Shown in pieces: positions 7,210-9,637 of a stretch of DNA of 9,637 nt (the first letter of the stretch is position 1; the number at the start of each line of letters is the position of its first letter). The stretch spans positions 1 to 9,637 of the forward strand of contig WLFB01000029.1 in NCBI GenBank assembly GCA_009703975.1, in the 5' to 3' direction. The notes under the pieces were generated by a model that saw nothing but the letters and a program-made list of their open reading frames with translations, was not told the origin of the DNA and did not search any database. This stretch comes from Actinomycetota bacterium. GTDB taxonomy: Bacteria; Actinomycetota; Acidimicrobiia; Acidimicrobiales; Ilumatobacteraceae. The position numbers and the translations under genes are program-made.

Positions 7210-8610
7210 TCACGCATTGAAACTTCTGCCAGTCAACGAGAGAATTGTCTCGCCAAACAATTCGCTAAGACTTGGATGAGGCATTACAAATTCGGCGATC
7301 TCATCAACTGAAGCTTCCCAGTTCACAGCCAAATACCCTGCCGCTAGTTGCTCGGTCACCCAAGGCCCGACCATGTGAACTCCGAGAACTTGACCCGCAG
7401 TGCCATCTGCATTTTTTTTCGCGATCACTTTTACTAGCCCATCAATTTCACCAAGAATCATCGCGCGAGAGTTGGCACGAAATTGATGCTTTGCGACAAC
7501 AACATCATGACCAGCCGCGCGTGCTTGCTCTTCTGATGGACCAGCCCATGCAACCTCTGGGTGACAATAAATCGCCCATGGCACACGGTCATACATAATT
7601 GGATACGCATTTTCGCCTCGCAAATGCTTAATCGACAAAATTGCTTCGGCATATGCAACGTGTGCAAGTTGCGGAGTATTGATTAGATCACCGATCGCGT
7701 AAACGCCAGGTTCACCGGTTTGGCAATATTCATCTACTGCGACGAATCCGCGATCGTCGACTTTAACTGCTGTGCCACTCAGCCCTAGTGCATCAGAAAA
7801 CGCACGACGCCCAATTGACATGATCACGACATCAATAATCAGCGGATCACCGGTCGCAAAAGTAATCTGCGTTGAACCATCTGGCAACGAACTTTGACCA
7901 GTAACGACAATGCCAGTTTTGATACTGATTTTCTTTTTTGTGAAACTCTTAACAACGACGTTTGCAACGTCAGGGTCTAGACCAGGCAAAATCTTTGGTG
8001 CACCTTCAAGAATCGTGACCTGCGAACCAAGATCTGCAAAAGTCGACGCGAACTCGCAACCGATTGCACCACCACCAATTACTGCAATCCGCTTTGGAAT
8101 CGTATTTAACATCAAAACTTCATCAGAGGTCATGATTGATCCACCGATCGGAAAGCCTTTGATCGTGCGAGGCACTGAACCACTTGCCAAAATCACATTC
8201 TTGGCTTGAATTTTTGTTGCAGTGCCGTCAGCAAGTTGAACATTTACAACTCGGTTTGCTTCAAGCGATCCAGTGCCGAGCAAATACGTAACTTTCTTTG
8301 ACTTTGTCAAACCGGTCAAACCTTTAACCAAGCCATCAATAATGCGCGCTTTACGCGCTTGGCTAACTGAAAAATCGACACCCGACGAAGTTGCGTTGAT
8401 CCCAAACTCTGAAGCATGAGCGACATGGCGATTGGCGGCTGCTGTTTCTAAAAATGCCTTTGCCGGGATACAACCACGATTTAGACAGGTTCCGCCGATT
8501 GTGTCGCGCTCAACCAACGCCACGCTCATGCCACAAGAGGCTGCATAAAAAGCTGATGCGTAGCCACCAGGACCTCCGCCGATTACAACGAGATCAAATT
8601 GGTCTGTCAA
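7210..8610 (-). CDS. lpdA: Dihydrolipoamide dehydrogenase (E3)
   Basis: FAD-dependent disulfide oxidoreductase that reoxidises dihydrolipoyl-E2 with NAD+. The 466 residues match the family length. The N-terminal FAD-binding motif is GGGPGG (11-16), the redox disulfide is C42/C47 in 'GGTCLNRGCIPAK', an NAD-binding 'GGGAIGCEFA' lies in the middle domain, 'YAIGDL' is the second FAD motif, and the C-terminal dimerisation domain supplies the catalytic His-Glu pair H445/E450 in 'HPSLSELFGE'. The start is a TTG at 8610, supported by GAAAGAG 5 nt upstream. It heads the E3-E2-LipBA group, so its product and the next two act on the same lipoyl-lysine. It is divergent from the selenoprotein lipoprotein gene, and E3 can in some actinobacteria also feed electrons to peroxidase systems through DlaT. 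Confidence 0.95.
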   Translation of the reverse strand: MTDQFDLVVIGGGPGGYASAFYAASCGMSVALVERDTIGGTCLNRGCIPAKAFLETAAANRHVAHASEFGINATSSGVDFSVSQARKARIIDGLVKGLTGLTKSKKVTYLLGTGSLEANRVVNVQLADGTATKIQAKNVILASGSVPRTIKGFPIGGSIMTSDEVLMLNTIPKRIAVIGGGAIGCEFASTFADLGSQVTILEGAPKILPGLDPDVANVVVKSFTKKKISIKTGIVVTGQSSLPDGSTQITFATGDPLIIDVVIMSIGRRAFSDALGLSGTAVKVDDRGFVAVDEYCQTGEPGVYAIGDLINTPQLAHVAYAEAILSIKHLRGENAYPIMYDRVPWAIYCHPEVAWAGPSEEQARAAGHDVVVAKHQFRANSRAMILGEIDGLVKVIAKKNADGTAGQVLGVHMVGPWVTEQLAAGYLAVNWEASVDEIAEFVMPHPSLSELFGETILSLTGRSFNA

Positions 8611-8858: not shown

Positions 8859-9458
8859 GTGAACAAGTCATTAAAACTAAGTGGACAAATTTTCGCTTCC
8901 ATTTTAATACTTACAGTTGTTGGTTGCGGTTCAGATTCTGCAAAACAAACTGACCCATCAAACACTTTAGAACAAGCGACACCGGCAACAGAGTCGACAC
9001 AAGCGACACGATCGACACGGTCGACACAGTCGACACAGTCGACACAGGCATCATCGCCAGCGATTTTTTCGGCGACGCTGTTGAGTGGTGCAACATTTGA
9101 AAGCACAAAAGTTTTAGAGTCGCAGCCACTTGCGCTCTGGTTTTGGGCACCGGGTTGACGGGCATGCAAATCAGAGTCTTCCTCGGTCGAGGCTGCATAC
9201 AAAACTTTTAAGGGCAAAGTTCAAGTCACTGGCGTCGCATGGAACGGCAGCGGCGGAGACATGCAAGATTTTGTAAATGAAAACGGTCTTTCGTTCACGA
9301 ACATCAACGACTCGAACGGTGAAGTTTTCGCGCGATTCAATGTGCCGTACCAACCAGCGTGGGTGTTTATCGCCAAAGATGGCATTGTCACGACAAGAAT
9401 CGGTGTGCTTTCAGATTTAGAATTAGAACAAGAATTAAACAGACTGGCGAGCAACTAA
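8859..9458 (+). CDS. Thioredoxin-like lipoprotein with in-frame UGA at the CxxC site: probable selenoprotein (Sec100)
   Basis: Read through the UGA at 9156-9158, this is a 199-residue exported thiol-disulfide protein of the TlpA/thioredoxin-like type. Residues 1-23 are a lipoprotein signal ending in the lipobox VVGC (C23 lipidated). Residues about 24-68 form a Ser/Thr/Gln linker with a tandem repeat. The thioredoxin fold follows: strand 'LALWFWAPG' leads to U100-R-A-C103, replacing the usual Cys-x-x-Cys, and 'NVPYQPAWVFIAKDG' holds the cis-Pro segment. The UGA is the only interruption and the frame stays the same on both sides for 99 more codons to TAA. Standard gene callers would report a truncated 99-residue lipoprotein and a separate fragment from 9261. 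A nonsense mutation or sequencing error (TGC to TGA) is the alternative. The next gene starts within its stop codon (TAATG). Confidence 0.8.
8994..9047 (+). repeat. Six tandem 9-bp units (TCGACACAG-like) in the lipoprotein linker
   Basis: Units at 8994, 9003, 9012, 9021, 9030 and 9039; the last three are identical TCGACACAG and the earlier ones differ by one to three bases. Each unit encodes Ser/Ala-Thr-Gln/Arg, so copy-number changes stay in frame and only lengthen or shorten the tether between the lipid anchor and the thioredoxin domain. Confidence 0.85.
9162..9200 (+). promoter_or_regulatory. Candidate bacterial SECIS hairpin downstream of the in-frame UGA
   Basis: CCUC (9181-9184) pairs with GAGG (9189-9192) around a GGUC tetraloop (9185-9188). 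CAG (9172-9174) pairs with CUG (9193-9195) below a 5' bulge rich in U, and GCAUG (9162-9166) pairs with CAUAC (9196-9200) with one mismatch. The loop begins 27 nt after the UGA, within the usual bacterial range of roughly 16-37 nt, and GGUC is the same loop as I recall for the E. coli fdhF element that SelB recognises. The lower stem is irregular, so the fold is tentative. Confidence 0.5.
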
Positions 9459-9637
9459 TGGGTATTCGTGACTACGGCAAGCGGCTTAACGCTGACACCC
9501 AAGAGATTGACACACAGCGACTTTGTCAGCGGTTTAAAGACACTGGTTTTACTTCACTTGAAGACTTGCAATTGCGAACGCGCACAAAAATTGCTGGAGA
9601 AGTTAAACGCATGCGCACCAAACCACGCAGTGGGATA
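9458..9637 (+). CDS. N-terminal part of an OB-fold nucleic-acid-binding domain protein (partial)
   Basis: The ATG at 9458-9460 overlaps the TAA of the selenoprotein gene, so translation is likely coupled. The 60 visible residues begin MGIRDYGKRLNA and end with 'LRTRTKIAGEVKRMRTKPRSGI', matching the start and first OB strands of a small actinobacterial family annotated as OB-fold nucleic acid binding domain proteins (pattern 'v.vaG.vrs.rvrPraG.p.le'). The remainder lies beyond the window. Its function in these bacteria is poorly defined; its link with the thioredoxin-like gene rests on the overlap only. The call is from pattern memory over a short stretch. Confidence 0.6.
   Translation, partial: MGIRDYGKRLNADTQEIDTQRLCQRFKDTGFTSLEDLQLRTRTKIAGEVKRMRTKPRSGI

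Follow-up and report, generated by a model that had tools for sequence, protein, structure and literature searches.

We wondered why a gene in a bacterium of the family Ilumatobacteraceae (Actinomycetota, order Acidimicrobiales) carries a stop codon exactly where a thioredoxin-like enzyme would place the first cysteine of its active site. The gene lies at positions 8859-9458 on the forward strand of the window, by which we mean the whole stretch of 9,637 nucleotides that was analysed (contig WLFB01000029.1 of assembly GCA_009703975.1; C180 in our contig numbering). The assembly comprises 1.49 Mb in 257 contigs and is 75.7% complete. A previous sequence-only reading of this DNA had proposed a surface-anchored selenoprotein with selenocysteine (Sec, U) in a UxxC motif, and our comparisons support that proposal. 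We consider it very likely that 8859-9458 is a single gene for a lipid-anchored oxidoreductase of the DsbE/DsbF type whose UGA at 9156-9158 is read as Sec, aided by a 12-nt selenocysteine insertion sequence (SECIS) with a GGUC loop.

An in-frame TGA at a predicted redox-active position

When read through, the frame runs from a GTG start to a TAA stop and encodes 199 residues with a single in-frame TGA at codon 100. Behind the GTG follow a lipobox, a low-complexity TQS linker, a thioredoxin-like domain, a Gln-Pro segment and the TAA. The predicted lipoprotein signal peptide (8859-8927) ends in VVG-Cys23 (Cys codon 8925-8927), which we take to be the lipobox, and Cys23 is kept in at least 90% of the 49 rows of alignment A3. 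Gln165 and Pro166 (9351-9356) are invariant in all 49 rows and presumably form the cis-Pro segment, predicted to face the active site. The active-site motif reads WFWAPG-TGA-RAC. Here the TGA occupies the first Cys place of a DsbE/DsbF-like CxxC, TGC at 9165-9167 encodes the predicted resolving Cys103, and 99 codons follow the TGA. Without read-through the frame from 8859 stops after 99 amino acids. The Pfam model AhpC-TSA spans the TGA (residues 70-178; 46.9 bits, cut-off 26), and the last A of the TAA (9456-9458) is common to the ATG (9458-9460) of the following open reading frame (ORF), a one-base overlap. The single frame with its lipobox, motif, 99 further codons and overlapping TAA had all been described in the sequence-only reading and are confirmed.

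To see how far the TGA is conserved, we used a family sample of 221 genomes from 27 genera, 211 of which had some match to the protein; the DNA was read for the TGA-bearing matches listed and for some matches without TGA. TGA was found at exactly the same column at no fewer than 139 loci, in at least 137 of the 221 genomes and in 20 of the 27 genera. Within the window's own genus, at least 25 of 29 genomes have the TGA form. Two of the 139 loci are contig pieces in genome G009, perhaps of one gene, and two others are copies in G123. Locus L231, the same gene as L019, was dropped from the counts (the neighbour analysis dropped L019 instead), and the sets of 137 loci used for stop codons, energies and the hairpin alignment leave out L221, which is cut short, and L223, whose hairpin is deviant. 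Among the other family rows read, seven had TGC and one TGT, giving eight Cys forms in all, and one row was gapped. Homologues thus carry either Cys or an in-frame TGA at this column, as had been anticipated for a true selenoprotein. Of the 139 TGA loci, 138 retain the second Cys of UxxC and one, L034, has Phe instead. Recurrence of TGA in this column on such a scale is far beyond chance.

In one genome, a stop inside a conserved domain looks like decay, and a nonsense mutation, a sequencing error or a pseudogene would account for it. We give this explanation next to no credence: the same stop is shared by at least 137 of 221 genomes, where the reading frame stays open before and after it, and the hairpin described below shows compensatory changes at synonymous sites. 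Because the in-frame stop recurs in at least 137 genomes, nearly always with the near-constant hairpin behind it, the apparently split gene is likely one whole gene.

The wider order gave a similar picture. At E 1e-25 or better, 127 of 397 drawn genomes matched, 15 of the 127 belonging to the window's own family, and the matches listed mostly had one internal TGA. Among the rows from other families of the order whose DNA was read, 56 of 58 carried TGA and two TGC, the TGA rows coming from 16 other families. As the 58 rows combine automatic loci with 40 hand-picked stretches, seven of them chosen for having two TGAs, 56 of 58 is no unbiased rate.

The glycine ahead of the TGA, which the sequence-only reading had remarked on because Trp is usual there, carries no weight. 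The preceding residue is Gly at 71 of the 139 loci, followed by T (29), Y (25), W (7), F (5), D (1) and H (1), and the Cys homologues P0004-P0010 likewise have Gly there.

A reading of UGA as another amino acid, through a code change or a suppressor tRNA, might be suggested by the database proteins P0002 and P0003, which show Trp at the TGA column. These residues are most simply explained by translation with table 4, because the closely related loci L019 and L033 have TGA in their DNA. The true stops of 137 family TGA genes are TGA in 91, TAA in 27 and TAG in 18, and one gene runs off its contig. With TGA as the terminal stop of these 91 genes, UGA is not reassigned, in line with what had been concluded from the stops in the window. 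The homologues without TGA carry Cys, not Trp, and we regard a code change as very improbable. Since these genomes also use UGA as a normal stop, translation should sometimes terminate at codon 100, and under low selenium the resulting 99-residue lipoprotein could be a second useful product. Upstream of the UGA, however, a disordered linker is followed by no more than the beginning of the fold (strands up to residue 96), and nothing hints at a use for this piece; we consider such a dual product very unlikely.

A four-pair GGUC hairpin behind the UGA

The predicted SECIS, which the sequence-only reading had not noticed, is the hairpin CCUC-GGUC-GAGG at 9181-9192 (loop 9185-9188). It starts 22 nt past the TGA, its loop 26 nt past it, and it spans the codons xCC TCG GTC GAG Gxx. 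Within it, serine is encoded by TCG at 138 of 139 loci and valine by GTC at all 139; in the adjacent part of these genes, TCG makes up 31% of Ser codons and GTC 38% of Val codons. The third positions of the first and fourth hairpin codons pair with each other although both are synonymous sites: C-G was found at 132 loci, U-A at four, U-G at three and an unpaired combination at none. The four U-A cases fall in four genera (G206 in g25, G214 in g27, G043 in g4 and G123 in g14). RNAalifold retained the four-pair hairpin alone across 137 family loci, with 99.8% of stem cells paired; a longer lower stem AUGCA/UGCAU within 9164-9198 was dropped on these grounds.

Among the 56 TGA rows from the rest of the order, the GGUC loop is present in 49 and the complete stem in 38. 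We combined these rows with 20 hand-chosen family loci, including the four U-A variants, in the 76-row alignment A4 and compared its stem with shuffles, which ignore relatedness. In the stem 67 cells were changed on both sides (shuffled mean 22.3), 88.3% of cells were paired (shuffled 67.6%), and covariation reached 0.539 (shuffled 0.163, sd 0.024; slid controls at most 0.195). Weaker measures separated less well. In A4 three pairs are changed on both sides, a value reached in 446 of 500 shuffles, and there are nine further pair types, a value reached in 9; in the family alone the corresponding values (1 and 3) were reached in 88 and 87 of 500.

The published model of bacterial SECIS elements (bSECIS), as given in PMC13188914, asks for a hairpin 16-37 nt behind the UGA, a G in the first two loop places, a stem of at least four pairs and an energy of -7.5 kcal/mol or lower. 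The window hairpin shares with it a 4-nt loop beginning with GG, four pairs and a distance of 26 nt from the UGA; measured against the model, its stem is minimal and its energy borderline. If the hairpin is imposed on the best sub-piece of each locus, -7.5 kcal/mol is reached at 136 of 137 loci. The SECIS prediction rests on sequence comparison, not on energy. An Rfam scan of the window returned no SECIS family and three matches, all under the curated gathering scores. A search of the window's own genome for the exact hairpin at 10-30 nt past a TGA matched this gene alone, other SECIS sequences not having been sought.

Two groups of homologues differ in their arrangement. The TGA homologues L223, L269, L281 and L285 form a clade that lacks a GGUC loop at the usual place, and some of them have a longer hairpin about 35 nt past the UGA, a possible second SECIS type. 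Seven UxxU copies (L263-L268, from G595, G410, G500, G361, G386 and G487) carry two TGAs in a UPFU motif and one GGUC hairpin, which lies 26 nt past the first UGA and 17 nt past the second, both in the published bSECIS spacing range.

Genes for selenocysteine decoding in the genome and the family

If the UGA is read as Sec, the genome should encode the decoding machinery, as the sequence-only reading had pointed out. Three parts of it were found: a tRNA-Sec with anticodon tca (63.5 bits, cut-off 47), SelD (308.9 bits, cut-off 125; with Cys rather than Sec as judged by eye) and, at a contig end, the C-terminal domain of SelB (PF09107, 63.6 bits, cut-off 23.2). The whole-protein selB model scored 41.5 of 242.25 bits, as expected of a fragment. 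The best match to an N-terminal part of SelB resembles EF-Tu and was not counted. Of the 28 other genomes of the genus, 25 matched selA at an E value of 0.001 or lower, in a few cases only weakly or as a fragment. Across the family selA matched in 166 of 221 genomes, 153 of them over the cut-off, and tRNA-Sec was detected in 147 (E 1e-8, stricter filters).

The presence of the TGA gene went along with that of the machinery. In 79 family genomes, completeness was 90% or more and contamination 5% or less. The TGA gene occurs in 53 of these, every one of which also has selA or tRNA-Sec, and 50 have both. The remaining 26, without a TGA gene among the matches listed, divide into 11 with selA or tRNA-Sec and 15 with neither. 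In the whole family, selA or tRNA-Sec was found in 134 of 137 TGA genomes. We rest this co-occurrence on counts, because relatedness inflates P values.

Several observations weigh against a Sec-decoding redox enzyme and have to be set beside these data. In the 75.7%-complete assembly of the window, the N-terminal part of SelB was not seen and selA was not found. Neither selA nor tRNA-Sec was found in three of the 137 TGA genomes (G017, G036 and G167). Enforced in its best sub-piece, the window hairpin reaches only -7.8 kcal/mol at a limit of -7.5; when pieces of 33-73 nt fold freely, they mostly adopt other structures, with energies no better than those of shuffles, and the freely folded hairpin appears only in short pieces and in one piece of 40 nt. 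The full GGUC four-pair hairpin is missing from its usual place in 18 of the 56 order rows, and L223 retains the TGA without this hairpin. L034 (G014) keeps both TGA and hairpin and has lost the second Cys to Phe, a variant that is either real or an error in an assembly with 9% contamination. Finally, the neighbour genes at the 139 TGA loci point to no redox partner.

On balance we favour the Sec-containing, lipid-anchored oxidoreductase. In this enzyme SelB and tRNA-Sec would decode the UGA at 9156-9158 as Sec, with SelB presumably binding the hairpin at 9181-9192. Sec100 and Cys103 would pair as a selenylsulfide, and the protein would sit on the outer face of the membrane, where it may exchange disulfides with exported proteins. 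The chief gain from Sec in such an enzyme would be speed and a better resistance to over-oxidation.

Redox type, cysteine forms and relation to known selenoproteins

Which reaction might the enzyme catalyze? Its fold is that of thioredoxin and nearest to DsbE/DsbF. Identity is 35-38% to DsbF and DsbE and about 22% to ResA, while ResA and the other TlpA/CcmG-like reductants together lie at 21-25%. The NCBIfam models for ResA (47 of 170 bits) and DsbE (22.6 of 123.15 bits) both stayed below their cut-offs. None of the five NCBIfam families matched by protein P0001 at E 0.001 or better reached its curated cut-off, which leaves the protein outside the named NCBIfam selenoprotein families. Mycobacterium tuberculosis DsbF (3ios) and DsbE/MPT53 (1lu4) have CxxC where UxxC is predicted here; according to PMC3853704, DsbF and DsbE oxidise hirudin and leave insulin unreduced. 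By analogy with these closest characterised homologues, we weakly favour the oxidising direction.

The same selenoprotein might instead have another job, as a ResA/TlpA-type reductant fed by a CcdA-like membrane protein or as an enzyme reducing peroxides or sulfoxides. We regard this as a serious alternative that falls somewhat short of an even chance; its probability overlaps that of the DsbE/DsbF-type reading because the Sec part is common to both. Against a reductant stand the lower identity to ResA than to the hirudin-oxidising DsbF and DsbE and the unmet ResA and DsbE cut-offs. PF02683 (CcdA/DsbD) was found in none of the 29 same-genus genomes and in 10 of 14 control genomes. This absence proves little, because the window's own genome has a CcdA-like ORF without any Pfam or NCBIfam match at E 1 (weak match to CcdA 5vkv, E 0.43). 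That membrane ORF (L002:1923-2768) overlaps a TlpA-like gene with the motif CEPC (L002:1351-1926); it sits on another contig beside a CxxC partner of its own, which argues against its feeding the UxxC protein.

The Cys forms were placed in a tree of 110 proteins that uses about one in four family TGA loci and few columns and has an arbitrary root. It requires three changes between Sec and Cys. In G120, the TGC copy L149 groups with its tandem TGA neighbour (support 100/91) and has lost the hairpin. The Cys proteins P0004-P0010 adjoin Sec forms of the family (joint group 97/80, nearest fork 95/66) and have TVE, TIE, AIE or VVE where the hairpin imposes SVE. Both cases would fit a change from Sec to Cys that released an RNA constraint. 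Tandem pairs of one TGA copy and one Cys copy (TGC or TGT) were seen at L149 (G120) and L223 (G205).

As to the surroundings of the gene, the ORF starting at 9458 runs off the window at 9637 on the forward strand; an OB (oligonucleotide/oligosaccharide-binding) fold is suggested by its relative at L231:5645-5998 (PF01336, 27.6 bits, cut-off 27). Divergently, on the reverse strand at 7210-8610, lies an lpdA-like flavoprotein gene, so named by eye and by the sequence-only reading. Its ORF cluster also lies upstream at 85 of the 139 TGA loci, many loci being cut by contig ends. A phage search was negative. Public metagenome-assembled contigs of the lineage (L091-L096) titled Bifidobacterium breve and Ferrithrix thermotolerans look mislabelled.

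The kind of protein is not new, because UxxC thioredoxin-fold selenoproteins (redoxin, TlpA, peroxiredoxin (Prx)-like, UxxU) are known from PMC13188914 and PMC2398784. They include UxxC/UxxU proteins of the redoxin (PF08534), thiol-disulfide isomerase-like (cd02966) and Prx-like (PF00578) types (PMC13188914) and thioredoxin-like and Prx-like families from the Global Ocean Sampling (GOS) data (PMC2398784). These computationally defined families have a thioredoxin fold and Sec at the first UxxC position, as predicted for our protein. The accessible parts name neither a DsbE/DsbF-type lipoprotein nor a family from this lineage; the families were compared by description only, and our protein may quite possibly overlap with redoxin or TlpA entries in Table 1 of PMC13188914. 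In the available portions of the open-access literature in PubMed Central, subscription papers being outside the scope, we found no description of this DsbE/DsbF-type lipoprotein selenoprotein, of selenoproteins of this lineage or of a four-pair SECIS as uniform as this one.

A broader reading, to which we give about an even chance, is that this lipoprotein selenoprotein is old, occurs throughout an actinobacterial order whose members are probably aerobic plankton, and contributes to maintaining Sec decoding there. It would be driven by an exceptionally small, near-fixed four-pair GGUC SECIS; in the UxxU forms one hairpin would serve both UGAs, which precede its loop by 26 and 17 nt, and the Cys copies would be secondary, with the hairpin lost. 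If the Sec-containing oxidoreductase is real, standard gene calling splits an exported, conserved redox enzyme in a single actinobacterial family in well over a hundred species, and selenium use has been hidden in a lineage for which we found no selenoprotein described in open-access literature. The near-invariant 12-nt hairpin, its natural compensatory variants and a hairpin-less Cys copy would together form a test bed for the minimal RNA that SelB needs. According to PMC13188914 aerobes rarely retain selenoproteins, while PMC5029168 reports that 40.4% of Sec users are aerobic; the finding would bear on the question whether aerobes avoid selenocysteine.
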